This document shows, piece by piece, positions 6,068 through 18,079 of a DNA stretch of 38,029 nucleotides (positions are counted from its first letter, which is position 1; each line of letters begins with the position of its first letter). Source of the DNA: a virus; the IMG/VR virus record IMGVR_UViG_3300042338_001090, positions 1-38,029 of that record. One strand, 5' to 3'. The notes under the pieces are model-generated. The model had not been told where the DNA came from. It made no database searches and worked only from the letters and a program-made list of their open reading frames with translations. The translations under genes and the position numbers were made by a program.

Positions 6068-9037
6068 ATGTACCCATATCCAAAAGGTTCATGTATGCAA
6101 TACCCTATTCCCCCTTGCTTTGATAATCCGGAAGAAGCTCCTGAGCGGCTGACCGAAATGTTCGTCGGCGTTGCGCAAGACCGTCGCATTCAACTGGGCC
6201 AGCGACCTGCCGAACGGGCGGTGTTCCGCAAGCTGCATGGTGTAGCCAGTGCCGAATGGGTGCTACAACCAAACATTCCCGAGGCTCTGAAGGTCGGCAT
6301 CTTCACGCATGAGCGCTTGCAAGCATGGGTGCGTTTTTCGAGTGACACAACGCCCACATCGCCGGACTTGAAGTCCACGCTTGGGGTTGGCATCAAACTT
6401 TTTGGCGTCCCGGGTGTCAAAGCACTGGGTGATGATGGCGATACGGCCGACTTCATCATGCAGAACTTTCCGGTCTTCTTTGTGGACAACGCCCAAGAGA
6501 TGACCGAGTTTACCTATGCCGGTGTGGTGCAAAAAGACTACCCCAGCTACCTGAAAAAGCACCCCAAAACCGCTGCGATTCTGGATCGCATGGCCAAGGT
6601 CGAAGGCAGTGTGCTCACCACAACCTATTGGGCCATCCTGCCTTTCATGGCAGGCGAGAAGCAATACGTCAAATACCGTCTCGATCCAGTTACACCACCC
6701 GAGAACGTGCCCAATGATCAGGCCGACTACCTGGCGGTGGATATGTGCAATCGCTTGTCCCATGACGGCTATCAGTTCAAGTTCATGGTTCAGTTGCGAA
6801 CCAATCCCGAAACCATGCCGTTGGATCAGGCCACAGTGGAATGGCCCGAGACAGAAAGTCCGTTTGTGCATGTGGCCACACTCACACTGCCCAGGCAAGA
6901 CATCACTTTGCGTGGCCAGTCGGAATACGGACAAGGCTTGAGCTTCAACATCTGGCGTGTGCCGCCAGAGCAAGCGCCAGTGGGCTCGATTGCCGTGGCT
7001 CGCAAAATGGTCTACCGCGAAGGCGCACGCTTGAGGCACGAAGCCAATGGCCAGCCCTTGCAAGACCCCACAGAACCGAGGCCAGCTGCATCGGCATGTC
7101 CTTTCCATCAAGTACAGGAGGCCACGGCCGAACCCGCCATTCAAATGTATGGACCCGTCGACACCTGCATTGTGAAAGCGGCCATCTACCCGTCTATTGG
7201 GGTGGCGCGTGTAGGCAACAGTCCTGATGAATGGTTTCTGGGGCCAGAGGTGCCAGACCCGGCCCCCTTTCCGCCAGGCTCTTACCGGGACGCACATCAT
7301 CGCCTCAAACGGCAGGCCGCCAGGTTCCGCATTTACGGACTCAATGCCAAGGGCGAGATCGTGCGAGAGCTGACTGCAGACAACGCTGACATCGAGTGGG
7401 ATGTTCAACTGGCCAACCAAAAGTCAGCTTGGTACGGGTTTCAGCTGGCGTTGGACATTCCGGAGGCGGCTTCTGCACCACCGACCACTTTGCGCAATCC
7501 GGGTGTCCCAGACAGAAACATGCTGAGCATCACCCCCAACCCACACAAGGTGAAAGGCAAGAACGCCAAAGCCAAGCGCTTTGACGATGGCCAGTTCATG
7601 GGTAAGCCGGTGTACCTGGGTGAAATTCACACAGACGAAAACGGGCGTCTGATTGTTTTGGGCGGCCACGGCCATTCGTCTTCTTACAACAACAGCAAAG
7701 CCATCACGTTTGGCAACAACGAAGGCTGGCATGACGATGTGTCCGACGGCCCGGTGACAGCAAGCGTGAAATACCAAGGCTTGCAACTGATGGTTGATCC
7801 TGCTTGGGTGGTGGTGGCGCCACCCAACTACGGTCCTGAGTTGAAAACTGTGCGCACGATGTGGGACTTGATGCGTGATGTAGCCATCACCAACGGGATG
7901 CTGCCCATGCCCACACGTCCAAGCTTTACTTTGGACATTTACCCGCTGTTCCAGCGGCTTCATGGTTTGCAGTGGGTCAACAGTGGCTTTGCTGCCGGCT
8001 TTGGCTGGAGGGGTGCAAATGATTTGACCAGCCCGGAAGTGGTAGCCAGACTGTCCAGCGCGTCCCCAGCCTTCAGGGAGCTACGCAAAACCATTGCAAA
8101 TCAGTTCCGCAACGACAACGTGGACTCGTGGTCTCCCAAGCCTTGGCCATGGCTGTATGGCGACGCCATGTCGGTACCCGCGGCCCATACTCCCCTGCAG
8201 AACACGTCATTGACTGCAACGCAGCTCGCTTTCCTGCAGCAATGGGCGAATGGTGATTTCATTGAAGACTACGATCCTGAGCAAGTGACGCCCAAGTCCA
8301 TTGAAGACGTGCCACTTGCAGCGCAAGGCGACACACTGACACGCGCAGCTCTGGACTTCTGTTTGGCCGATGCGTTTCACCCGGGGTGCGAGATGACATG
8401 GCCTGTACGCATCAAAACCATGTACATGGGACCGTTCAGGTTTGCGCATGCACCCAAGGGCTGGGTTGCCCCGTCTATTGGCGAGGTTTTGAGCAGTGAC
8501 TGGATCACGATTCCCAACGGACCTTTCAGCGGTCAGCAGGCGGGCGGCATCACCCGATGGATGGCCGTGCCGTGGCAAACAGACACCGCCAGCTGCCGCT
8601 CGGGCTACGACAAAGCGTATGACCCTTATGTGCCCAGCTTCTGGCCCGCACGTGTGCCCAACCAGGTTCTGACCAAGCAAAACTACGACATCGTGATGGA
8701 CACCAGCAAGTCGCTCGGAGAGCGCATGATGGCATTCGCCAATCGCGCGGCTTGGACCGCTCCGCTGGGTGACAGTTCGTACACGGATCAGATCAACAAC
8801 ATGATTCATCACTTTGACCACATGGGTGTGGTTGAAGTGCGCGAAGGCCCAGCAGACCGAGCAAATTTCCCTGCTGTGATTCAGGTAGAGGACGAACACC
8901 GTCCTATCTTGAGTGATGGACATGCACCGCGCAAACATCATGACGATGCAAAGCTGGGCGCAGCTGGTGAAACTCGCCCTGACTCTGTTGATCTGATGAC
9001 GATTGAGAAAGTGCGTCGCTTCCCTCGTGGTTTGTAA
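6068..9037 (+). CDS. Catalase-like domain fused to a LodA/GoxA-type CTQ amino-acid oxidase
   Basis: Two enzymes are joined. Residues ~20-340 resemble heme catalase-related proteins: a candidate distal His in FRKLHGVASAEW (H57), VRFSSD, GVGIKLFG, DFIMQNFPVFFV and YVKYRLDP. Residues ~362-989 are a LodA-family quinoprotein, opening with IYPSIGVARVGNS. C774 (HPGCEMTW) and W836 (MAVPWQTD) are 62 residues apart and are my candidates for the cysteine tryptophylquinone pair. LodA enzymes oxidise the amine of an amino acid (lysine epsilon or glycine), releasing ammonia and H2O2; the substrate cannot be read here. The catalase part could destroy the peroxide at source. The first ATG (6068) lacks a ribosome binding site; ATG 6095 with AAAAGG upstream is a better start (980 aa). 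The stop abuts the lodB-like start. Confidence 0.85.
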   Translation: MYPYPKGSCMQYPIPPCFDNPEEAPERLTEMFVGVAQDRRIQLGQRPAERAVFRKLHGVASAEWVLQPNIPEALKVGIFTHERLQAWVRFSSDTTPTSPDLKSTLGVGIKLFGVPGVKALGDDGDTADFIMQNFPVFFVDNAQEMTEFTYAGVVQKDYPSYLKKHPKTAAILDRMAKVEGSVLTTTYWAILPFMAGEKQYVKYRLDPVTPPENVPNDQADYLAVDMCNRLSHDGYQFKFMVQLRTNPETMPLDQATVEWPETESPFVHVATLTLPRQDITLRGQSEYGQGLSFNIWRVPPEQAPVGSIAVARKMVYREGARLRHEANGQPLQDPTEPRPAASACPFHQVQEATAEPAIQMYGPVDTCIVKAAIYPSIGVARVGNSPDEWFLGPEVPDPAPFPPGSYRDAHHRLKRQAARFRIYGLNAKGEIVRELTADNADIEWDVQLANQKSAWYGFQLALDIPEAASAPPTTLRNPGVPDRNMLSITPNPHKVKGKNAKAKRFDDGQFMGKPVYLGEIHTDENGRLIVLGGHGHSSSYNNSKAITFGNNEGWHDDVSDGPVTASVKYQGLQLMVDPAWVVVAPPNYGPELKTVRTMWDLMRDVAITNGMLPMPTRPSFTLDIYPLFQRLHGLQWVNSGFAAGFGWRGANDLTSPEVVARLSSASPAFRELRKTIANQFRNDNVDSWSPKPWPWLYGDAMSVPAAHTPLQNTSLTATQLAFLQQWANGDFIEDYDPEQVTPKSIEDVPLAAQGDTLTRAALDFCLADAFHPGCEMTWPVRIKTMYMGPFRFAHAPKGWVAPSIGEVLSSDWITIPNGPFSGQQAGGITRWMAVPWQTDTASCRSGYDKAYDPYVPSFWPARVPNQVLTKQNYDIVMDTSKSLGERMMAFANRAAWTAPLGDSSYTDQINNMIHHFDHMGVVEVREGPADRANFPAVIQVEDEHRPILSDGHAPRKHHDDAKLGAAGETRPDSVDLMTIEKVRRFPRGL

Positions 9038-10159
9038 GTGCCTGTGCGGGACCAGCTCTTTGTCGATGTTTTGGTGGTGGGGGCTGGCCCCGCAGGCAGT
9101 ACGGTGGCGCTTAATCTGGCAACTTTTCACAAGGTTTTGATCGTCACGCAGCAGAGTGTCACGTCACAAGCAGTTGGGGAGTCATTGCCGGCTGCTGCAT
9201 CACGTTTACTTAAAGACATGGGGCTGTGGTCTTCGTTTCTTGAACAAGACCATCAACCCCATCGCTTGAGCAAGTCACTATGGGGCAGTGCTGAACCTTA
9301 CTTCAATGACTCGGTTCGCAACCTGGACGGCGATGGCTGGCATCTGGACCGCGCTCGATTTGATGAGTGGCTGCTGCAGCAAGCTCATCGACGAGGCGCT
9401 GGAATTCTGAGGTGTTCGGGATTGAGTTTTGGAAATCTGGACCCCACCGATCAATCATGGCTTGTGGAAACCGAAGTCGATGGACAGCGCATTCACATCA
9501 AAGCCAATTGGTTGGTTGATGCCACTGGCCGAAAATCATTCTTCGCCAAACAAATGGGGTTGATACCGCAAGCCAAAGACAAGCTTGCCTGTGGCTGGAT
9601 GATTGGCCGTCACCTCTCCAACGCAGAGCAGGAAAGTGAAATCCATGCCGAAAGAGATGGCTGGTGGTATACGTCGGTTCTTCCCAATCAACAAAGGTTG
9701 CTGGCCTTCTATACCGATGCAGATCAGCCTTCTGCCAAAGATGCACACAAGCCCAACGCGTTGCTAAGGCGTGCACAGCAGCTGCCAGACCTGGCGCAAA
9801 CAATATTGACAACAGACTTTTCTGACATAGCCGCCAAACACGGCTTTTGCTCAGCCAACAGCGCCACGCTGCCTCAATACGCCGGACACCGCTGGCTGGC
9901 CACCGGAGACGCGGCCATGTGTTTTGATCCGCTCTCATCCCAAGGCATATTCAATGCGCTGTACACAGGTCTGGCTGCATCAACATCGATTCATGATGCG
10001 CTCAGCACGGATCATTTTCAGCCTTGTATCGATGAATACAGCAACGCACTGGCAAACATTTGGCAGACGTATTTGAACAACCGGGCCAGCTGGTATCAAG
10101 ACCAAGCACGCTGGCCAAAATCTGAGTTTTGGCTTCGGAGAACTTCAGCAATTACCTAG
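9038..10159 (+). CDS. LodB-like FAD-dependent maturase for the CTQ oxidase
   Basis: The 373-aa flavoprotein has an N-terminal dinucleotide-binding motif VVGAGPAGSTVALNLA, a GESLPAAASRLL segment typical of halogenase/LodB-type flavoproteins, VDATGRKS in the middle, and the second FAD motif ATGDAAMCFDPLSSQGI. LodB proteins are needed to make the cysteine tryptophylquinone in LodA. The GTG start at 9038 follows the LodA stop with no gap, so translation is coupled. The length is that of a full LodB, including the usual Trp/Arg-rich end. Its stop (10157-10159) overlaps by eight bases the end of the prophage spanin gene on the other strand. Confidence 0.85.
   Translation: MPVRDQLFVDVLVVGAGPAGSTVALNLATFHKVLIVTQQSVTSQAVGESLPAAASRLLKDMGLWSSFLEQDHQPHRLSKSLWGSAEPYFNDSVRNLDGDGWHLDRARFDEWLLQQAHRRGAGILRCSGLSFGNLDPTDQSWLVETEVDGQRIHIKANWLVDATGRKSFFAKQMGLIPQAKDKLACGWMIGRHLSNAEQESEIHAERDGWWYTSVLPNQQRLLAFYTDADQPSAKDAHKPNALLRRAQQLPDLAQTILTTDFSDIAAKHGFCSANSATLPQYAGHRWLATGDAAMCFDPLSSQGIFNALYTGLAASTSIHDALSTDHFQPCIDEYSNALANIWQTYLNNRASWYQDQARWPKSEFWLRRTSAIT
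10114..10133. repeat. Inverted repeat in the 3' end of the lodB-like gene
   Basis: GCCAAAA and TTTTGGC form a perfect 7-bp stem around a six-base loop, close to where the two convergent transcription units meet. Neither strand continues into a T-run, so it is a weak candidate for a terminator and may only reflect the coding sequence. Confidence 0.25.
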
Positions 10160-10661: not shown

Positions 10662-11122
10662 TTCGATTCCTGATCCAAAGCCTGGAGCTTGTGTTGGAAA
10701 ATTAATCCGAGCAGCTTTTCGGTATAGGAAGGATCGGTCGCATACCCTGCCTTGAGCAGCGCACGAGCAAAATCCTCAGTGGTCTGACACATGAAACAGC
10801 GCTGATAGCGTGGATTGCCTTTGAGAAAAGCGGCATGATCATCAATGCTGGCCTGCCAACTGCTGTACTTTCGCCATTTGGCTGGAATAACAAGCCATTG
10901 CCCTCTGATGAACTCGCGTGTGTTTAAGGTCAGCGTTTCACCCTGCCACAGGCTATCGGCCTTGATACCAAAGAGGTTGTTCCCAGCTTTTGCAAGGCCT
11001 GATTCACCCCAGGCGGACTCAAGTGCCGCCTGAGCGATCGTGATGCTGGCAGGAACCCCTGACTTTCGCTGGGACTCCATCGCTGGCTTTGACAGCCGCA
11101 TGATGAACTCTGAAGGTCTCAC
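10658..11122 (-). CDS. Phage endolysin, FlgJ-type glucosaminidase
   Basis: The 154-aa protein matches the mannosyl-glycoprotein endo-beta-N-acetylglucosaminidase-like family (as in FlgJ). Signs are IAQAALESAWGESGLA with the catalytic Glu in 'ESAWGES', NNLFGIKA, then the RKYSSWQASIDDHAAFL and RYQ.C.....DFARALLKAGYATDPSY segments. It would cut peptidoglycan glycan strands. There is no signal peptide, so export relies on the holin. Its ATG overlaps the holin stop (ATGA) and its stop overlaps the Rz start. Confidence 0.88.
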   Translation of the reverse strand: MRPSEFIMRLSKPAMESQRKSGVPASITIAQAALESAWGESGLAKAGNNLFGIKADSLWQGETLTLNTREFIRGQWLVIPAKWRKYSSWQASIDDHAAFLKGNPRYQRCFMCQTTEDFARALLKAGYATDPSYTEKLLGLIFQHKLQALDQESK

Positions 11123-11502
11123 AGCAGCTCCTTCACATCCTTGGCCACCTGGTCGATGGAATCGTCACGGCGCTTATCGATGAAAGCAAACGTCCATCGC
11201 ACCATCGCCCACCCAGGCAGTCCACACGCAAAGATCAACCCACCCAAGGCGCAAAGCCCCATGGTTGAAAAAGCCCAGTGATGCAGTCCAAAGTGTTCGA
11301 CGGTGATGGCACCACCGCCGATGCTCGACACCACGGTGCTGATCAGCCCAACAGCCCACTCGCGTTTGTTGCGAGGCGGCGTCATCAACATGACCACCAC
11401 AGCTGCCAAGGTGGCGCCACTGGCTGCAGCAGCTGCGGAACCTCCCAATGCTTTATAGGCGACCGCCGCTCCGGCGACCCCACTGCTTGTCGGTTCTGGC
11501 AT
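11119..11502 (-). CDS. Probable phage holin
   Basis: The 127-aa protein has three hydrophobic segments: a Gly/Ala-rich one near the N-terminus (AAAAASGATLAAVVVMLM), GLISTVVSSIGGGAITV and FSTMGLCALGGLIFACGLPGWAMV. It ends in a charged tail (KRRDDSIDQVAKDVKELL). This is the plan of class I holins, and its place just before the endolysin supports that. I chose ATG 11502, with GGAG five bases upstream, over the longer open frame that reaches 11562, because the upstream part is the terminator-like hairpin. Confidence 0.75.
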   Translation of the reverse strand: MPEPTSSGVAGAAVAYKALGGSAAAAASGATLAAVVVMLMTPPRNKREWAVGLISTVVSSIGGGAITVEHFGLHHWAFSTMGLCALGGLIFACGLPGWAMVRWTFAFIDKRRDDSIDQVAKDVKELL

Positions 11503-11510
11503 TCGTAACT

Positions 11511-11545
11511 CCAAAAGAAAAGCCGCCAGGGAAAACCATGGCGGC
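11511..11545 (-). terminator. Terminator-like hairpin between the radical SAM and holin genes
   Basis: On the minus strand GCCGCCA (complement of 11539-11545) pairs perfectly with TGGCGGC (11522-11528) around a ten-base loop. TTTTCTTTT follows at once and runs into the holin GGAG. This has the form of a factor-independent terminator, yet it lies inside the late operon with no room for a promoter behind it. Confidence 0.65.
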
Positions 11546-11591
11546 CGATAAAAAATGAACAAAGAATGAAATGAAAGGCTTCGTAGCAGAT

Positions 11592-13013
11592 CTATGCGGC
11601 AACGACCGCAATCGGAAACGCTTTTCGGAGCTGCAGGACAGGAACCACGGTCTGCATGTCTCCACCAGACTCCACAAACGCAAGACAGATGACGTCAATC
11701 ACGTTCTGTCGTGACGAACGAATAGCATCAGCCTCAATCCGGGTCAGGATCAGCCCTTGCGTCTGGTAGTACAGCGCTGCGGCCATGACCGCCAGGTTGT
11801 GCGAAAACGAGTTGTCGCAGGCAGCGCGCCAGTAACCGTCTTCCAGAAACAAACAGGCCCCTTTGCAAAGTTGCACCACGGGACAACGCGGGCATTCGAT
11901 TCGGGTGCTGAAGTGGTACGCCGTATTCAGCGCTATGTCGTCAAATTGTTCAACGTGGCCGATCCTGTGACGGGTCGAGGCGCTCATGTTCTGGCAGGTC
12001 GTCACATTGCCTTTCATGTCTACGGCAATCGAGTCATCACGGTCCATGCCGCACTTTTGGCCCAAAGAGTTCAGCGGCCTGGACTGTGCCTGCGCTCGCA
12101 TGAATTCGTCGACTTTGTCTCGCATCGTACCCACCGACATGCCAGCACCTGTCACCAGTTCCCAGAACATCTGGTGGCGGTATCGATCAAGATCAGCACC
12201 TTCCAGCGTCAGCGAGAGACCTCCTTGGTCATAGGGCAGCATCACTTCCTCGGTGGCCAGCACAATGGCCTGCACTGGCAGATCGAGCTTTTCAGCGAAA
12301 TACTGCCGAACCGCCTTGAGGGATTGGTTGTGCCGGTGCAAAACCGTGTTGAAGCTCATCCGATCAAGCGGCATGCGCCTGGATACCCAGCGCTTGATCT
12401 GGACAAGCTTTTCAGGATCAGCCAATGGATCCGGGCCACGGTATGACTGGGCAGGTCCGTCATGGGACAAGCCAATCCCGATATCCAGCGCTTCCACCCA
12501 AGCCAGTTTTTCGTCATCGAATAGCGATCCGTTCGTCACGATCGACAACTGAGCATTGGGATAGCGACGTTTGACCTCCTCACCCAGGGGCTTGAGCAAT
12601 TTCCAGTAAACAAAGGGTTCTCCACCCCAAAACTCGATCTTGACGCCAGCACCTCGGCCATCCTCTCCTCCAGCAAACCACCCCTCGAGTTGCTGCATGA
12701 AAGGCTGGACATCGTCCGGGTGCCCGTCAAGGTCATGAGGCTGGTGTGCCTGTGAGCAGTATTGGCAGGCGTAATTGCATTTGAGCCCCAGCTGCAGCTT
12801 GAGGTGGCGAATGGCCCTTGATTTTCCGGCCGGATTGGAGGGGTGATGCAAATGCCAAAAAGGCTGCCACTGCATGCCCTCCTGGCGAGCAAATGCCTGT
12901 GGCAATGGCAAAGGCTCCCCACTGTCTTTCCAGACCAGACTGGAGTCTTCTGGGTTGTAGACGGCCTGTCGCTCAAACTCGTTTTTGCCATTGAGGGTGA
13001 GTGTGAATTTCAT
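11592..13013 (-). CDS. Radical SAM/SPASM enzyme in the phage fibre cassette
   Basis: The 473-aa protein has the radical SAM cluster motif CX3CX2C (C79, C83, C86 in KCNYACQYC), the GGEPF motif of the anSME/SPASM class, and a C-terminal SPASM domain. The SPASM Cys series is KCGMDRDD, then TTC, then CPRCPVVQLCKGAC and AAC, able to hold extra 4Fe-4S clusters. Relatives install thioether bonds, other cross-links or oxidations in peptides and proteins. ATG 13013 is chosen because it overlaps the stop of the 69-aa gene (ATGA) with GAGG upstream; the frame is open further, to 13055. It is the last gene before the holin and follows three oxygenase-like genes. Its substrate is unknown; the Cys/Asn-rich end of the fibre is my candidate. 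Confidence 0.88.
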   Translation of the reverse strand: MKFTLTLNGKNEFERQAVYNPEDSSLVWKDSGEPLPLPQAFARQEGMQWQPFWHLHHPSNPAGKSRAIRHLKLQLGLKCNYACQYCSQAHQPHDLDGHPDDVQPFMQQLEGWFAGGEDGRGAGVKIEFWGGEPFVYWKLLKPLGEEVKRRYPNAQLSIVTNGSLFDDEKLAWVEALDIGIGLSHDGPAQSYRGPDPLADPEKLVQIKRWVSRRMPLDRMSFNTVLHRHNQSLKAVRQYFAEKLDLPVQAIVLATEEVMLPYDQGGLSLTLEGADLDRYRHQMFWELVTGAGMSVGTMRDKVDEFMRAQAQSRPLNSLGQKCGMDRDDSIAVDMKGNVTTCQNMSASTRHRIGHVEQFDDIALNTAYHFSTRIECPRCPVVQLCKGACLFLEDGYWRAACDNSFSHNLAVMAAALYYQTQGLILTRIEADAIRSSRQNVIDVICLAFVESGGDMQTVVPVLQLRKAFPIAVVAA

Positions 13014-13219
13014 GACAATGATTCCTCGAATGCGATGGGGTATGCCTCTCGGCAAACCTGTGCCGGATCAGCACCCGGCATCGTTTGAATGTTGAAGACA
13101 TGACGGCCAGAAGCTTTGCCGTCGGGATTGGTGACCAACACAGTCATGCGCAGGTTGCTGTCGTCCACACGGACCACATCCACCTCGAAACCTGGACGGG
13201 TATGTGAATTCAAAGACAC
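13010..13219 (-). CDS. Small protein of the fibre-modification cassette (69 aa)
   Basis: I do not recognise this family. The product is acidic, with strand-like stretches (EVDVVRVDDSNLRMTVLVT, HVFNIQTMPG) and a single Cys (AQVCREAY). It starts at GTG 13219 under a perfect AGGAGG six bases upstream, inside the end of the preceding oxygenase gene. Its stop overlaps the radical SAM start (ATGA). Such tight coupling suggests similar amounts of both proteins. It may be a substrate-binding adaptor or chaperone for the radical SAM enzyme; with one Cys it is an unlikely thioether substrate. This is inference. Confidence 0.7.
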   Translation of the reverse strand: MSLNSHTRPGFEVDVVRVDDSNLRMTVLVTNPDGKASGRHVFNIQTMPGADPAQVCREAYPIAFEESLS

Positions 13220-13893
13220 GACGCCCCTCCTCTGAGCTCGGTGTACAGATCGCTGTAGTTGTGAGAGGCGACCCGAAGGGTCACCACCAGAAGGGTTCGC
13301 TCACCCTGGGCATTGAAGGGGTTGGTTTCATGCCAGATGCGCGATGGATGCAGTACCACCAGACCGGGAAAGGTTTCGATGTAGCGAACCTTCTCCCAAA
13401 ATGGAAACCCCGCCATCGGACGGGGGTCCTGCAAGATAAGTTCACCGTCACCGACGGTCCAGCTGCGTTGGTCCGGTGGACTTCGGCCTTGCCCGCAGTC
13501 CAGGTACAGACACAGGACATGGTCACAGGTGTGGTGGTAGTGCGGCTGAGCCCGCATACCTGGCTGGTAATGCACGGGGATGCAACGAGCTTCGATTTTT
13601 AGATCCTGTGCATTGCGCACCCCGTGTGCTTCGAGCAGGTAGTTGCGGTAAGTACTCTCCACCCAGAGCTTCCATGGATGCCAAACTGCCGGTGCATGAG
13701 CCTCATGATGGGCATGAAACAGATTGAGCTGGACCCTCAGCCGGACATCCACATCAGGCAAGCCGTGCACGGGTGGATGGGTCTGATGATCATGAAATCT
13801 TTCGACCGTGTAGCGCCGAAGTTCATCCATTTCAGATGGAGTCCAAGGCGCCGTGTCCTTGAGCACTGGCGTTGGCCAGAGGTATTCAATCAT
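13210..13893 (-). CDS. 2OG-Fe(II) oxygenase-like protein, third of the cassette
   Basis: The 227-aa protein resembles the phage-associated 2-oxoglutarate/Fe(II) oxygenase group. The His-rich strand AQPHYHHTCDHVLCLYLD (residues ~116-132) would hold the first metal ligands, DPRP (156-159) follows, then VVLHPSRIWHETNPF with H188, and R199 in ERTLLVV as candidate 2OG-binding Arg. The first ligand pair is less regular than the canonical HxD. ATG 13893 overlaps the stop of the upstream oxygenase gene (ATGA) and has AGAGGTGG upstream; the frame is open to 13941. Reactions in this fold include hydroxylation of amino-acid side chains. The substrate is unknown. Confidence 0.75.
   Translation of the reverse strand: MIEYLWPTPVLKDTAPWTPSEMDELRRYTVERFHDHQTHPPVHGLPDVDVRLRVQLNLFHAHHEAHAPAVWHPWKLWVESTYRNYLLEAHGVRNAQDLKIEARCIPVHYQPGMRAQPHYHHTCDHVLCLYLDCGQGRSPPDQRSWTVGDGELILQDPRPMAGFPFWEKVRYIETFPGLVVLHPSRIWHETNPFNAQGERTLLVVTLRVASHNYSDLYTELRGGASCL
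13226..13231 (-). promoter_or_regulatory. Shine-Dalgarno site deciding the GTG start of the 69-aa gene
   Basis: AGGAGG on the minus strand lies six bases before GTG 13219 and inside the last codons of the upstream oxygenase gene. It supports this non-ATG start over any other. Confidence 0.75.
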
Positions 13894-14468
13894 GGTGCCA
13901 CCTCTGAACCAAACGCCACCGCGATACGCAAGGCGTTGCAATAACGGGAGATCGGGCGGGCAGCATGGCGCATGCAGCCATTGATCTGCACCATCCGATT
14001 GGGTTTGACCATGACTGCCGCCTGAATTTCACCCAGATCGTCCAACATCACCAAATCCCCTCCCCAATCCGCACTCCACTCGGCTACCGGATACCAGATC
14101 ACGGATCTTGCCGTGTCCTGAAACTCAGTTGGGAAGTCCCTGTGGAGCGAAGCCTCATCTCCGAACGCTTGCACATTGACCCACAGGCGCGTGATCTCTG
14201 CGTTGGGAAAGAACTGCTCTTTGACCTGAAGGGCCACTCGGACCAGTGGTCCCCCCTGGGCCACAAACGCATCAAAAGTATGTTCTGGCTGCCATGCACC
14301 TGCGTCATAGTGGTGGTTGTGCTTTCCTGGCAGCACAAAATTTCGGTGCCAAAACACCCCAGGGGCCTTGGCATGCGCTTTCCAGCCAAACACAAGGTTC
14401 TGGCTCAACAGCCACTGGCGGCATTCAGCGGTCAACTCGGGCTCAATCAAACCGTCAACGATTTGCAT
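13890..14468 (-). CDS. 2OG-Fe(II) oxygenase, second of the cassette (canonical HxD...H...R)
   Basis: The 192-aa protein has the clearest active site of the three: H109-R-D111 (ASLHRDFP), the WGGDLVML strand, H168 in GCMRHAARP and R181 in ALRIAVAF, thirteen residues after H168. These fit the iron ligands and the 2OG-binding Arg of the SM-20/prolyl-hydroxylase-like fold. It should hydroxylate or oxidise a substrate side chain with O2 and 2-oxoglutarate. ATG 14468 with GGAGG upstream is chosen over the open frame to 14519. The start overlaps the upstream oxygenase by fourteen bases and the stop overlaps the next start (ATGA). Confidence 0.85.
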   Translation of the reverse strand: MQIVDGLIEPELTAECRQWLLSQNLVFGWKAHAKAPGVFWHRNFVLPGKHNHHYDAGAWQPEHTFDAFVAQGGPLVRVALQVKEQFFPNAEITRLWVNVQAFGDEASLHRDFPTEFQDTARSVIWYPVAEWSADWGGDLVMLDDLGEIQAAVMVKPNRMVQINGCMRHAARPISRYCNALRIAVAFGSEVAP

Positions 14469-15054
14469 GGGCTTGTCCCTCCAATGCCTGAACCCGGAAC
14501 TCAAAATGGACTTCCACACTCGGCCGGGTACCGTTGTAGGGGTGGGAATGGTGCGCCAGGTAGCTCGGGAAAATCACCAGCAGGCCGGGGTACGGATGGA
14601 TGATTTCCGAGCGCCAGCCTTCCCAGGGCAATTTGCGGCTGCCGTAAGCACCGCTGGGATTGACCAGCACAAAAGCGCCGGAGTAGTCCTGGCGAGAAGG
14701 ATCTGGCCGAGCATTTCCGTCAATCCAATACACCGCCGAGAGATCGGTGTCTTCGGCATGCAGCGGAATGAACTGACCAGGTTGGGTGATGACCTCTCGG
14801 GCGGATTGCCACACGGGTTCACACTGGTAGGCGTGCCCAATGACTTCACGAACCTGGTTTACCAGGGGTCTGAAAACGTCACAGCAGCTTTCATGATCGA
14901 TCAGGGACTGACGGCTTTTGCGTGCCCAGGGCTGCCCATCTCGATTGAGCCGCTGATGTAAATCCATTGCCCTTTTGAGCATCTGATCACGCAAGCCATC
15001 CTCAAAACTCAGTTGTCCTTGGTAGACCCGAGCAGAAAACAGTTCGCGAATCAT
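14455..15054 (-). CDS. 2OG-Fe(II) oxygenase-like protein, first of the cassette
   Basis: The 199-aa protein looks like the TIGR02466-type 2OG-Fe(II) oxygenases often found in phages. H99-A-E101 in IPLHAEDTDLSAVYWID is the candidate HxD/E pair, FVLVNP the following strand, HPYPGLLVIFPSYLAHHSH with H168/H169 the distal ligand and R177 the likely 2OG-binding Arg. Residue identities are my reading without alignment. The ATG overlaps the stop of the 268-aa structural gene (ATGA) with AGGTGG upstream, so it is translated along with the fibre genes. Confidence 0.78.
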   Translation of the reverse strand: MIRELFSARVYQGQLSFEDGLRDQMLKRAMDLHQRLNRDGQPWARKSRQSLIDHESCCDVFRPLVNQVREVIGHAYQCEPVWQSAREVITQPGQFIPLHAEDTDLSAVYWIDGNARPDPSRQDYSGAFVLVNPSGAYGSRKLPWEGWRSEIIHPYPGLLVIFPSYLAHHSHPYNGTRPSVEVHFEFRVQALEGQAHANR

Positions 15055-15857
15055 GAAAGGACCACCTGAGCATCGGCGCAGCCGGGGTAGAACTTGAAGC
15101 CCGCTTTCAATCGGACGGTGTCGCCAGCTTGAAGCCCCAAGGTCATGACGGTGGCTGTGGTCATCCCGCCCTGCGTTCGGCGTCGGCTGACGGGCAGATA
15201 ACCATTGACCGACTCAAAGTGAATCTCTGCATCACGGTTGCTGGGATTGCCCAGGCCGTCGAGCATCTGCACAGTGAATTCGGCTGGATCCCCCGCTATG
15301 ACATTTGCGGGGGCAATCACCCGCAAGTCTGGGAACTCCATTTCCCTTACCTGAGCAGATGACTGGTAATCGGTGTGCTCCACATCCATGGAAGCCACAC
15401 CTTCAACCAGACATCCTCCAAGCGTGGGATGAAGGTTCACCGTCACGAAGCATTCATCAAAGCTGCTGTCCGCAAAGGGCACGTTAAATCCGGTCAGGAA
15501 GTTCCCGTTCCAGACATGCCCCGAGACTTCTGGCGCTGTGAAACGCGTAGACAGGGTGTAGACATACAAGGGCAACGGGTCGATGAGCCGTTTTTCTGCC
15601 CAGCGGTAACCGGTCATAAAGGACTGTCGGTCGGACCACCCACGGTTGTTTCTCAGCTCACGATAGGCAAACACCTGCTCGGCAACCACCTGGTAAGTCA
15701 CCCCCTCCACAGAGAAGTCAGAAGGCTGATCACTATCTGGACGGTGTCGCAAGCCAAAGCGCATGAGTACCTGCTCAGCCGCTTGGTCCACTTTGAGATG
15801 AATGGCGTAATCCAGCGCAGTCGAGAGCTTGCCCGCGCGCACAAGAAAGACTTTCAT
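15051..15857 (-). CDS. Phage structural protein with C-terminal Ig-like domain
   Basis: The 268-aa protein has no family I can name. The first ~170 residues are a mixed domain beginning MKVFLVRAGKLS. From about residue 175 a beta-rich Ig-like (bacterial Ig/invasin-type) domain follows: DLRVIAPANVIAGDPAEFTV, then TTATVMTLGLQAGDTVRLKA, ending FYPGCADAQVVLS. Ig-like domains are common in tail and capsid surface proteins. The gene begins nine bases after the tail-fibre stop, with its AAGGA overlapping that stop, and its own stop overlaps the first oxygenase. It may be a fibre-tip partner or fibre chaperone. Confidence 0.65.
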   Translation of the reverse strand: MKVFLVRAGKLSTALDYAIHLKVDQAAEQVLMRFGLRHRPDSDQPSDFSVEGVTYQVVAEQVFAYRELRNNRGWSDRQSFMTGYRWAEKRLIDPLPLYVYTLSTRFTAPEVSGHVWNGNFLTGFNVPFADSSFDECFVTVNLHPTLGGCLVEGVASMDVEHTDYQSSAQVREMEFPDLRVIAPANVIAGDPAEFTVQMLDGLGNPSNRDAEIHFESVNGYLPVSRRRTQGGMTTATVMTLGLQAGDTVRLKAGFKFYPGCADAQVVLS

Positions 15858-15866
15858 GATGATCCT

Positions 15867-16877
15867 TCAGCAGCAACCGCAGCAGGCACAGTTGCAATTG
15901 CAGTTTGTTCGGCAATTGAAGGCGGTGTTGCCGCAGTTGCAGTTGGTGTAGCTGCCACAGTTGCAGTTGCAATTGCAGGCTCGGTACCAGCGGTGGTACT
16001 CGCCACCACCAATCTCGTCTTGGGCCAGGTAGTAACCGTCGTAGTTGTAGCCTGTGCTGGGCACGGCGTTATAGGCGTAGGTCGTTCCCCCCGCACCGTC
16101 GTATTGGGCCGAGTTGGCGCAGTAGTTGAACCCCAGGCCCCAGGTCCACCAGCTGGTATTGGAGGGTTTCCAGTACGTATTGCCTGCGCAGTTGCCGGTC
16201 GGCAAGATGCCATTGCAGTTAGCAGCCAGATCGTCGTAATACTGGTTGCTGCGCCCCATCTCGCCAATGTCCTGTCCATCGTTCATGCGATAGCCAGTGT
16301 TGCGAGCGTTGTCCGCCGCACCAGACTGAGACGAGTAAATCACTGCGCCAGTACCCATGTACAGATGGCCTGTCATCGTGTCACCGGCCTTGGCCAATCG
16401 ACTGGACAAATCGATCGGTACGGTGGCATTACCAGAGGCATCCGGTGCGTTGCCATTGACTGAGCGCACAAAGGCCGTGGAGTCATAGCCATCGAGCTTG
16501 TCAGCGTCCGCTGCCTTGGCCGTGATGCCCAGGTATGCCGCGTTGTGGTTGTGGCCCAGCGCTGCATATGCGGCATCGTGGTTGTGCCCACTCAGTGCAA
16601 AGCCGGTGGAGTCGATGCCATCCAGCAGATCCGCATTGGCCACTTTGCCCACTGTGGCCGAGAGGTCGATGACCATCTTCCACGTGACGGGACTGACCAC
16701 GGTGAGGATGTAGAGCTTTTGCTCATCAGTCCTGAAACACGGCATACCCTGCTGCAGATTCACAGTCGGAAACGCCGTTCCGCTGGAGAGCGAGAGCGCC
16801 GTCTTGTCGTTGTTCAGGATCTGCGACAGCGAGTCCGAGAGCGTCGTGCTGGACGGGATTTCGGTGTAGTTTTGCAT
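15867..16877 (-). CDS. Tail fibre with a Cys/Asn-rich C-terminal tail
   Basis: The 336-aa protein begins with a short head, then shows phage tail-fibre repeats: ADLLDGIDSTGFALSGHNH, AYAALGHNHNAAYLG and ADKLDGYDSTAF, with HxH metal-site motifs as in T4 and lambda side-fibre proteins, then RLAKAGDTMTGHLYMG. Residues ~215-298 are rich in Tyr, Trp, Asn and Gly and probably form the tip domain. The last 36 residues (301-336) contain 14 Cys and 10 Asn in CNCNCNCG, NCNCG and NCNCNCACCGCC blocks. So many Cys at the end of an extracellular fibre suggest metal binding, disulfides or enzyme-made cross-links. The modification-like genes directly downstream favour the last. ATG 16877 has AAAGGG upstream. 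Confidence 0.85.
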   Translation of the reverse strand: MQNYTEIPSSTTLSDSLSQILNNDKTALSLSSGTAFPTVNLQQGMPCFRTDEQKLYILTVVSPVTWKMVIDLSATVGKVANADLLDGIDSTGFALSGHNHDAAYAALGHNHNAAYLGITAKAADADKLDGYDSTAFVRSVNGNAPDASGNATVPIDLSSRLAKAGDTMTGHLYMGTGAVIYSSQSGAADNARNTGYRMNDGQDIGEMGRSNQYYDDLAANCNGILPTGNCAGNTYWKPSNTSWWTWGLGFNYCANSAQYDGAGGTTYAYNAVPSTGYNYDGYYLAQDEIGGGEYHRWYRACNCNCNCGSYTNCNCGNTAFNCRTNCNCNCACCGCC

Positions 16878-16888
16878 TCAGTACCCTT

Positions 16889-18079
16889 TCAATACCCCTG
16901 GGCAACCCAAGAAATGGCTCCCGTCACGCGGGCGCCAGAGGTGTTTTCCAAAACGGCGGTGAAGCCTGCGGTGGTGACCGTTCCAAGAATTCGAGGAATG
17001 GCCACGGTGGTACCGCCCTTGAAGGTCAGCGTGACCTCCGGCGAGACCCGAAAAGTCCGCACAAAAACGACCGCTACGCCACTGGACGCGGTGACCACCT
17101 GCGCCGTGCCTCGATCGAATACATCGGGCACGTCCACAGTCACCCGCAGGCCATCGATGTAGCCTCGGTCTGCGTTGCTGGAAGTCAAGATCGCCCTAAA
17201 AAGCGCACGCTGGTAGGTGTAGTCGCCCTGGATGAAGTCCCGGAAGTTGGTGTAACCGGGTGGATGACCAGACTCCAGGATGTCCATGAAGTCCTGCTCG
17301 GTGATCTCGGTGTTGGCAACGATCATGTCGCTGATCACCCCATTGGCCCGGCGCCGATACTGCTCGGCCAGACCAAAGGCCTCGCTGAGCTTCAAGGTCT
17401 GCGCACGCCTTATCGCCTCGCCAATGGCAAAGCCTTCGCTGATGGCACGGCGGTACGCGACCGTTCGACCGAGCGCCTCGGCCAGACTGAAGGCCTCGGA
17501 GATTTGCTTGACCTGCGACTTGACCAGTGCATCGCTCAGCCTGAAGTTTTCAGCCTGTGGCTTGGTCATCCCTTTGGAAGGCTTCTCGGAAAAACTCAGG
17601 CTCTCGGATACCCGCAGGATGAACGCAATGAGGTCCGTATAGGTCTCAGCCAGCGCCAGCGTCTCGTATTTGCGCAATACCAACTGCCGTGCCAGTCCCT
17701 CCCCCACCTGAAACGTCTCGAAGACGGCTTTGGTGCCCGTGCGAGCGTACTTTTCCGTGAACGTCAGGGACTCAACGAAACGCAGCACAAAGGCAATCAG
17801 GTCGGTGTAGGTCTCGACAAAGTTCAGGTTCTCGTACTTGTTGAGTGCCAAAGCCCGGCTGGATTTATCCGAGAAGGTCAGGCTCTCGGAATTGCTCTTA
17901 ATGCCCAATTTCTGAACCAACTCGGCAAAACTCAGGTCAGTGGCCACGGTCAGGGCGTAGACCGCCGGGTAGGCCGTTGTCCAGTTCTTGCCTGCCGTAG
18001 CGCTGCCCCAGGAAAACTTGCCGGAAGTCCAGGTGTAGTTGGCCCCCGGCGAGCTGGAGACGTTGACGGTCTCGGCCAT
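16889..18079 (-). CDS. Repetitive phage tail protein (SEsxxxxE repeats)
   Basis: The 396-aa protein carries about ten imperfect repeats of 16-20 residues between ~48 and 243, with the core 'sEslsfsEa..r' (SESLTFSDK, VESLTFTEK, SESLSFSEK, SEAFSLAEALGR, SEGFAIGEAIRR, SEAFGLAEQYRR). Two longer copies share ETYTDLIAF. The N-terminus has a beta-like segment (NYTWTSGKFSWGSATAGKNW) and the C-terminal 140 residues form a beta-rich domain. Its position between the J-side genes and the fibre suggests a tail-tip or fibre-base structural protein. The function of the repeats is unknown; they may form an elongated stalk. Confidence 0.7.
   Translation of the reverse strand: MAETVNVSSSPGANYTWTSGKFSWGSATAGKNWTTAYPAVYALTVATDLSFAELVQKLGIKSNSESLTFSDKSSRALALNKYENLNFVETYTDLIAFVLRFVESLTFTEKYARTGTKAVFETFQVGEGLARQLVLRKYETLALAETYTDLIAFILRVSESLSFSEKPSKGMTKPQAENFRLSDALVKSQVKQISEAFSLAEALGRTVAYRRAISEGFAIGEAIRRAQTLKLSEAFGLAEQYRRRANGVISDMIVANTEITEQDFMDILESGHPPGYTNFRDFIQGDYTYQRALFRAILTSSNADRGYIDGLRVTVDVPDVFDRGTAQVVTASSGVAVVFVRTFRVSPEVTLTFKGGTTVAIPRILGTVTTAGFTAVLENTSGARVTGAISWVAQGY
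17576..17839 (-). repeat. Tandem 168-bp duplication inside the repetitive tail gene
   Basis: Codons 81-112 (17744-17839) and 137-168 (17576-17671) encode near-identical segments, both built as KYE-x-L, then ETYTDLIAF, then ES-L-F-EK. They are 56 codons apart. This marks a recent internal duplication on top of the older short repeats. Confidence 0.7.

Follow-up and report, generated by a model that had tools for sequence, protein, structure and literature searches.

Among the closest systems described so far is that of the PapB-type ranthipeptide maturases (NF047865), in which a radical S-adenosylmethionine (SAM)/SPASM enzyme also stands beside a Cys-rich substrate. PapB bonds Cys to Asp or Glu, in the case of Asp via the beta-carbon, and accepts Cys-Xn-Asp with n = 0-6 (PMC9413430). 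In phages, the fibre tips of T4 gp37 and of marine phages, the nearest structural parallel, bind iron through HxH motifs, which offer possible metal ligands at two-residue spacing (PMC11705849), some fibres carry self-cleaving S74 or Hint domains, and the host-recognition clusters of pelagimyophages gain radical SAM cassettes in the tail-fibre region (PMC7029224). The passages on those cassettes give them no function, and "cysteine" occurs 0 times in that text (PMC7029224). Here we describe a locus on the minus strand of a 38-kb virus contig (IMG/VR record IMGVR_UViG_3300042338_001090; "the window" is this whole stretch of 38,029 nucleotides), where a tail fibre gene ending in a Cys/Asn array is followed by six tightly coupled genes, the last of which encodes a radical SAM/SPASM enzyme. 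Judging from the linkage, the position of the array, its residue bias and the fold class of the enzyme, the array is probably the enzyme's substrate. Unlike the PapB systems, the array is an alternation of X and Cys rather than CX3D, and a fibre of the virion takes the place of the short peptide as presumed substrate. In contrast to the iron fibres, CxC replaces HxH, lies at the C-terminus and has a dedicated enzyme. Where S74 or Hint domains occur here, they stand directly behind the Cys array, which would become the mature end, unlike in other self-cleaving fibres. An earlier reading made from the sequence only knew of no described system of this make-up, and we also found none in the open-licence literature (bioRxiv not covered), a search that does not establish absence in print. 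The enzyme superfamily is known; as far as checked, a fibre as a substrate in the manner of ribosomally synthesized and post-translationally modified peptides (RiPPs), alternating Asn-Cys ends and convergent self-cleaving ends make this a new kind of system.

The fibre, the presumed substrate, is a protein of 336 amino acids (15867..16877, minus strand, as are all cassette coordinates). Its first 298 residues contain 4 Cys, and its last 38 (15870..15983, RACNCNCNCGSYTNCNCGNTAFNCRTNCNCNCACCGCC) contain 14 Cys and 10 Asn (binomial P ~4e-17 at the Cys rate of the head). It was called a tail fibre on the basis of gene order and of weak PHROG and tblastn matches to phrog_972 and proximal long-tail-fibre subunits. 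A portion of the protein is similar to proximal fibre subunits of the T4 type, and over residues 1-174 the fibre is 37% identical to that of phage JWF. Two GHNH(D/N)AAY repeats in the shaft form His-Asn-His motifs resembling the iron-binding HxH of T4-type fibres; the array contains no His and both motifs lie in the shaft, so the T4-type arrangement of HxH at the tip is not what this fibre has.

The enzyme (473 amino acids, 11592..13013, ATG at 13013), the presumed maturase of the fibre tip, belongs to the radical SAM superfamily and to the SPASM enzymes. Its radical SAM core (PF04055, 30.3 bits, cut-off 29.5, Pfam) and SPASM domain (TIGR04085, 33.5 bits, cut-off 27) were both recognized, and the phage family phrog_1802, "radical SAM", was matched at E=5.6e-53. 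In an alignment of 77 rows, the CX3CX2C motif (C79, C83, C86) was invariant and the SPASM pattern C-x9-15-G-x4-C...C-x2-C-x5-C-x3-C...C was in register, with C321, C340, C374, C377, C383, C387 and C399 invariant and G335 kept in at least 90%. The structure model (predicted local distance difference test, pLDDT, 94.6) was most similar, among solved structures, to the SCIFF thioether former CteB (5why/5wgg; Z 23.3, 341 residues aligned, root-mean-square deviation 3.7), with which it nevertheless shares only 19% identity. ChlB, anSMEcpe and TigE came next (Z 19-20). Thus, what the sequence-only reading had said of the Cys/Asn-tailed fibre and of the radical SAM/SPASM enzyme was borne out.

Searching viral contigs with the enzyme gave 28 loci, whose best segments were 34-96% identical. 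An alignment of ten sequences then retrieved 106 relatives from 149 genome-contig stretches (79 loci kept) and at least 591 relatives among at least 599 stretches of viral contigs (80 loci kept, some on contigs already collected); loci are cited below by our L numbers. The named organisms of the genome-contig loci include Limnohabitans, Nereida, Thalassobacter, Polynucleobacter and Burkholderia paludis. Apparent prophages of free-living bacteria also contain copies. The enzyme was matched by 18 of 50,697 GenBank phage records, of which 3 belonged to Achromobacter phages JWF and 2-1 (77-85% of the enzyme covered) and 15 were weak matches in Campylobacter phages (25-28% covered). JWF is an isolated phage, reported to be temperate and ultraviolet-inducible (PMC3899368). 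The smallest gene sets seen comprised two or three genes.

We found that array and enzyme were closely linked. The forward count used 164 full-length enzyme open reading frames (ORFs) with at least 6.5 kb upstream, loci selected by Cys being excluded. At 90% identity (106 clusters), an array of at least four X-Cys pairs was present on the enzyme's strand in 89 clusters and of at least three in 95, compared with 0 and 4 on the opposite strand. The values were 37 and 41 of 49 clusters at 70% identity (opposite strand 0 and 1), and 13 and 15 of 17 at 50% identity (0 and 0). A linked gene for the presumed substrate, as expected of RiPP systems, therefore occurs in 89 (95) of the 106 clusters. By source, the array was found in 67/74 viral loci, in 40/41 loci chosen by tail protein J and in 44/58 loci of genome contigs (repeats on the same contig uncorrected).

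The reverse search was blind to the enzyme and looked in viral contigs for the DNA pattern TGY(AANTGY)x4, encoding C(N/K)x4C. It gave at least 120 stretches, 3 of them already known loci and at least 117 new. The enzyme or a relative lay on the same stretch in 44 of the 117 (E up to 1e-3), at 1e-20 or better in 41 of the 44 (the weaker ones being L203, L205 and L254), and when the whole records of 50 of the remaining 73 were searched, it was found in 10. Frames were called fibre-like by a simple rule, namely an array at the end or before a Hint- or S74-like sequence. Among the matches listed, 60 of the 117 frames were fibre-like, and for 52 of these 60 the stretch or its record also encoded the enzyme or a relative. 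The same was true of 2 of the 57 other frames, both of which were long, real Lys-Cys arrays missed by the rule (Fisher P 6e-22, inflated by kinship). A broader pattern, (TGYNNN)x8TGY, gave 0 stretches with the enzyme among at least 120 in viral contigs; the frames printed were mostly microsatellite-like, so this search tests nothing and was set aside as uninformative.

Of the phages picked through tail protein J (the best 80 of 598), 29 extended at least 7 kb downstream; 28 of these carried both features and one carried neither, so only one enzyme-free phage was seen in this set. Within one bacterial family (299 genomes), the enzyme was present in 5 genomes, two of them seeds (G051, G055), and the pattern CNCNC[N/D/A/T]C in 18. 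Four of these 18 matches were fibre-like by eye, one before a Hint-like sequence, and all four lay in enzyme-bearing genomes; the other 14 were out-of-frame hexamer repeats by reading. The fifth enzyme-bearing genome, without a fibre-like array, is a Ramlibacter chromosomal cluster. In a second family, the enzyme occurred in 4 of 295 genomes, two of these being seeds. The co-occurrence of enzyme and Cys-ended fibres, which the sequence-only reading had proposed to look for, was thus found in both directions and in divergent phages. Downstream of the enzyme, L323 and L347 (Comamonadaceae and Burkholderiales bins) have an ORF with CLCFCFC, probably an unrelated frame.

The composition of the arrays was also strongly biased. 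Considering all 265 enzyme loci, 40 of them Cys-selected, at least four pairs were present in 213, and arrays reached 27 pairs. Because the selecting pattern itself favours Asn and Lys, the Cys-selected loci were left out of the residue counts, which gave 173 of 225 loci with at least four pairs and 108 distinct tails. The X residues of these tails (n=688) were Asn (416, 60%), Ala (112, 16%), Asp (72, 10%), Lys (40, 6%), Gln (10), Cys (10), Arg (8), Tyr, Val, Thr and Ser (4 each), Gly (2), Glu (1) and Ile (1); in the 124 tails including Cys-selected loci, Asn accounted for 63%. Gly makes up 11.7% of the same proteins. Asn occupied X at the first, second, third and fourth pair in 103, 101, 89 and 41 of the 108 tails, and nearly all Lys came from two arrays, L024 and L028. 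Synonymous codons were mixed in 56 of the 57 arrays that reach four Asn-Cys units, so it is the peptide and not a DNA repeat that selection maintains. The two Lys-rich loci (L028 993-1787 and L024 688-1428) hold 27- and 25-pair arrays, mostly Lys-Cys, before S74-type ends, and their clusters include several 2-oxoglutarate (2OG)-oxygenase-like proteins; in that of L024 these are joined by two tryptophan-halogenase-like flavoproteins and by a further radical SAM gene.

In 96 of the 108 tails, the array is the end of the protein. In JWF it stands directly before a Hint domain (PF05203, 47.5 bits, cut-off 32.1), and in L028 and L214 directly before an S74 chaperone (PF13884, 50.6 and 29.3 bits, cut-off 22). 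Hint and S74 modules cut at their own start. Given either a terminal position or a self-cleaving domain behind it, the array would end the mature chain in all three designs. By pattern, Hint ends were counted in 9 of 108 tails and force at least four changes on a quick tree; of four Hint-like fibres scanned only JWF passes Pfam, L235 (21.1 bits) and L285 (16.7 bits) lying below the PF05203 cut-off and L381 giving no match. The pattern label for S74 proved wrong for L332 and L339, and the S74 counts based on it were not used.

Several loci showed other arrangements. L155 (3051-11662) and L182 (240-6597), minus strand, encode a protein of 67-79 amino acids with HTHxFxDDYSTACNCNCNCNC, followed by one that is p268-like by reading (see below), and carry further Cys-rich, radical-SAM-like proteins, again by reading, plus a distant enzyme of the family. 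In L193 (4830-7899), a fibre-like protein ending in NCNCNCNCNCTS is directly followed by a radical SAM protein of 355 amino acids and a protein of 262; this short radical SAM protein is 25% identical to that of L020, and the arrangement is possibly a minimal or sister system. L020 itself has its second, short radical SAM ORF (7001-7885) between p268 and the main enzyme, and its fibre shows a Cys at every third position, YCSYCSYCSYCTYCNCNCDC.

Between the fibre and the enzyme of the window lie p268 (15051..15857, ATG at 15857), ox199 (14455..15054, ATG at 15054), ox192 (13890..14468, ATG at 14468), ox227 (13210..13893, ATG at 13893) and p69 (13010..13219, GTG at 13219). From fibre to enzyme, the recomputed junctions are a gap of 9 bases and overlaps of 4 (ATGA), 14, 4, 10 and 4 bases, the last being the ATGA junction of p69 and the radical SAM gene; genes, strand, place and junction lengths were exactly those given by the sequence-only reading. 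It had further named three oxygenase-like proteins. Family support for these is weaker than for the enzyme: ox199 (PF13759, 27.7 bits, cut-off 27; phrog_81) lies about at the cut-off, and ox227 (PF13759, 26.7 bits; phrog_81) and ox192 (PF13640, 26.1 bits) fall just under the cut-off of 27. The profile set that finds ox199 also retrieved ox227. In ox192 an HRD...H motif was seen by eye, and the 2OG-oxygenase model FlmC matched it with 48.7 bits (E=8.6e-13), far below the cut-off of 240.

All three are 2OG-Fe(II)-oxygenase-like and probably optional tailoring enzymes. Counting from the array gene to 2.5 kb past the enzyme in 123 loci with distinct tails, Cys-selected loci included, we recognized no 2OG ORF in 56, one in 50, two in 11, three in 4 and four or five in 2, so the oxygenases are not core to the cassette, a correction to the sequence-only reading, and the three of the window are a rich version of a simpler set. 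The Asn fraction of the array was 0.66, 0.68, 0.82 and 0.81 with 0, 1, 2 and 3 oxygenases, and 0.07-0.12 in the two Lys-rich loci with 4-5; the groups are small and kinship is uncorrected, and no conclusion was drawn on oxygenase number and Asn content. The second recurring component is instead p268, whose profile found 211 ORFs in the loci collected and which has a counterpart in 97 of the 123. The AlphaFold2 model of p268 (pLDDT 95) contains an immunoglobulin (Ig)/Big_1-like domain at residues 175-268, resembling those of GH2 enzymes, intimin or the neck protein of phage Chi (Z 10-12), and its best full-length structural matches were unnamed or uncharacterized phage proteins. Fold searches gave no named match to its N-terminal part, which was not folded alone; with only the Ig-like end matched, p268 could not be taken as a known chaperone or enzyme, and the Ig-like matches are more in keeping with a virion or surface protein than with an enzyme. 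Neither p268 nor p69 matched a family in Pfam, PHROG or curated-model searches, and p69, a small protein directly before the enzyme, had homologues in 32 of 171 loci.

The enzyme also has relatives outside phages. In L344 (Variovorax) it stands beside a large protein with YcaO and nitroreductase domains (Pfam), and L340, L342 and L348 have a neighbouring protein that is alike by eye; such proteins accompany relatives in Variovorax, Ramlibacter and a gammaproteobacterial bin. A peptide gene of about 70 amino acids with a kept Asp-Cys was found by phmmer in L342, L344 and L348 and weakly in L345, and not in L340 or L346. One Bacteriovorax relative lies beside PqqD. The chromosomal clusters L340, L342, L344, L345 and L348 look like an undescribed RiPP class, and with YcaO/nitroreductase-type neighbours and Asp-Cys peptides, a peptide substrate containing Asx-Cys is the natural reading.

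Based on these distributions, we hypothesized that the fibre is synthesized as a giant precursor of the RiPP type, whose folded shaft would stand in for the leader and whose C-terminal (Asn-Cys)n array would be the core, modified by the radical SAM/SPASM enzyme before or during fibre assembly. The enzyme would abstract a hydrogen from a residue that precedes or neighbours each Cys, in most cases Asn or Asp, and the Cys sulfur would be bonded to that residue. The tip would thereby acquire successive thioether rings and become rigid and free of thiols. In phages that have 2OG-Fe(II) enzymes, these would probably hydroxylate residues of the array, and p268, with its Ig-like end, would probably cap, chaperone or anchor the tip. 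In some phages the Hint or S74 domain would cleave itself off, making the array the end of the mature fibre, and the tip would meet the host surface; the order of the modification steps is one that we infer. The idea put forward from the sequence, that the target of the enzymes is the fibre end of the phage itself, was supported strongly but indirectly by the two-way co-occurrence in divergent phages, and also by the residue bias of the array and the relatives in RiPP-like clusters. None of these results demonstrates the chemically hardened or metal-loaded tip that it also suggested. The nature of the product is more tentative, and we would put a thioether a little short of an even chance. For it speak the thioether former CteB as nearest structure and the PapB model, which was the best or second-best curated model for 7/7 members scanned, though far below cut-off (57.7 bits for the window enzyme, 52-80 for the seven and at most 79.5 for a relative, cut-off 340). 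Among reaction types, we would rank thioether formation first, epimerization second and formylglycine formation third.

Epimerization would turn X into D-residues, so that an alternating D/L array folds as a beta-helical needle with the Cys on one face, comparable to polytheonamide-like peptides. The strict two-residue alternation, the choice of Asn, Ala and Asp rather than beta-branched residues at X and the near absence there of Gly (2/688), which cannot be epimerized, all suit this, and the epimerase EpeE was among the structural matches. We nevertheless consider it unlikely, since EpeE (Z 13.3) ranks clearly below CteB, ChlB, anSMEcpe and TigE (Z 19-23) and the invariant Cys would go unexplained. 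The enzyme might also oxidize Cys to formylglycine, and a row of aldehydes would bind host amines covalently. The sulfatase maturase anSMEcpe shares the SPASM layout and the fold (Z 19.8), and the JWF homologue is annotated as sulfatase-maturating; however, the window enzyme reached only 34.6 bits with the sulfatase maturase model (cut-off 349.45), and Gln341, the residue after the second SPASM Cys and kept in at least 90% of the 77 rows, occupies what we take to be the place of the catalytic Asp of anSME, which makes this reaction very improbable.

Two further explanations give the array or the enzyme another role. If the array were mainly a metal site, the CxC pairs of three chains would hold Fe, Zn, Cu or an iron-sulfur cluster, which the enzyme would build or shield. 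Alternating HxH ligands are known from the iron sites of T4 gp37 (PMC11705849), and the shaft of the window fibre has its own two His-Asn-His motifs, but binding alone requires no dedicated radical SAM enzyme and the iron-sulfur site of a phage hub uses four Cys (PMC10276861), so we regard this too as improbable. The enzyme could instead act on p268, p69, a host surface sugar or a small molecule, with a disulfide-held array as mere neighbour. Linkage is indeed no proof of a substrate, and pelagimyophages have glycosyltransferases together with radical SAM cassettes in their host-recognition region (PMC7029224). Against this, array and enzyme track each other across three types of fibre end and in distant phages, such arrays were seldom met in phages or genomes that lack the enzyme, and p268 and p69 were not found in 26/123 and 139/171 loci; we therefore hold another substrate to be quite unlikely.

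Some observations weigh against the array as thioether-forming substrate. Array and enzyme could be linked because they belong to one pathway, with another component as the enzyme's target, and a Cys-Asx bond at every pair is at odds with Ala (16%) and Lys (6%) as X residues. No curated model of a known maturase reached its cut-off with the window enzyme and relatives (seven members scanned). The structure model has three strands but shows no helix as long as four residues ahead of residue 87, so the usual fused, peptide-binding RiPP recognition element (RRE), unlike the helical N-terminal part of CteB, is not evident (no search with RRE models was made); the VIA alignment to CteB and TigE starts at residue 1. 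The family also branches, within the phage tree, into chromosomal clusters, L340, L342, L344 and L348 forming one clade (quick tree, midpoint root). Moreover, radical SAM genes without Cys-rich fibres, which the sequence-only reading had named as evidence against itself, do exist, in a minority of 11/106 clusters. Nine of these look non-phage (L287, L293, L334, L340, L342, L344, L345, L346 and L348; eight judged by eye, L345 placed by its peptide), and some carry a small peptide gene that may be the substrate; the two apparently phage ones are L399, ending in a degenerate CNCAGGACDCG, and L297, whose frame begins like other fibres and has a different end. In the reverse direction, 8 of 60 fibre-like arrays had no enzyme in the record, and contig ends do not explain all of them: L241 and L260 run off the stretch, the match of L223 lies within about 100 bases of a contig end, other contigs pair the arrays of L251 and L269 with the enzyme, the array is not the end in L213 and L250, and for L197 we have no explanation.

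Upstream of the cassette, the window contains lambda-type tape measure, tail I, portal, capsid and terminase genes, so the late-operon setting of the sequence-only reading holds. The holin that it placed behind the cassette kept no such name, as the gene at 11119-11562 matched only phrog_1024, of unknown function; an endolysin gene (PHROG) comes next. Directly upstream of the fibre, a tail protein of 396 amino acids (16889..18079, minus strand) is, from its position, a probable fibre adaptor, and the two genes have the same order in L271. On the plus strand, a LodA/GoxA-like cysteine tryptophylquinone oxidase and a LodB/GoxB-like maturase (6068-10159) are convergent with the adjoining phage lysis genes; the oxidase, of 989 amino acids, is extended at its N-terminus by about 370 residues, which match catalase weakly. 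This pair was rejected as part of the system and is probably host flank or a private addition, since the other loci searched contained no homologue. At the left end of the contig (101-3352, plus strand), an AAA_13-type ATPase (775 amino acids) and a 300-amino-acid protein without family are possibly a defence pair.

On balance, we favour the view that fresh- and sea-water phages finish the fibre tip by RiPP chemistry, which would be a novel form of virion maturation. In it, the radical SAM enzyme would make a C-terminal (Asn-Cys)n or (Lys-Cys)n array of 3-27 pairs become a covalent ladder or needle; the array would be dressed by oxygenases (and, for Lys-Cys arrays, perhaps by halogenase-like flavoproteins), be exposed by self-cleaving domains and meet the host. 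If this is true, viral structural proteins can be RiPP substrates, and virions would contain a class of chemistry to which sequence-based structure prediction would be blind. The radical SAM cassettes that pelagimyophages have in their host-recognition clusters could then be explained as well, and a new kind of receptor-binding tip would be added, together with a large family of natural enzymes acting on one end of a sizeable folded protein.

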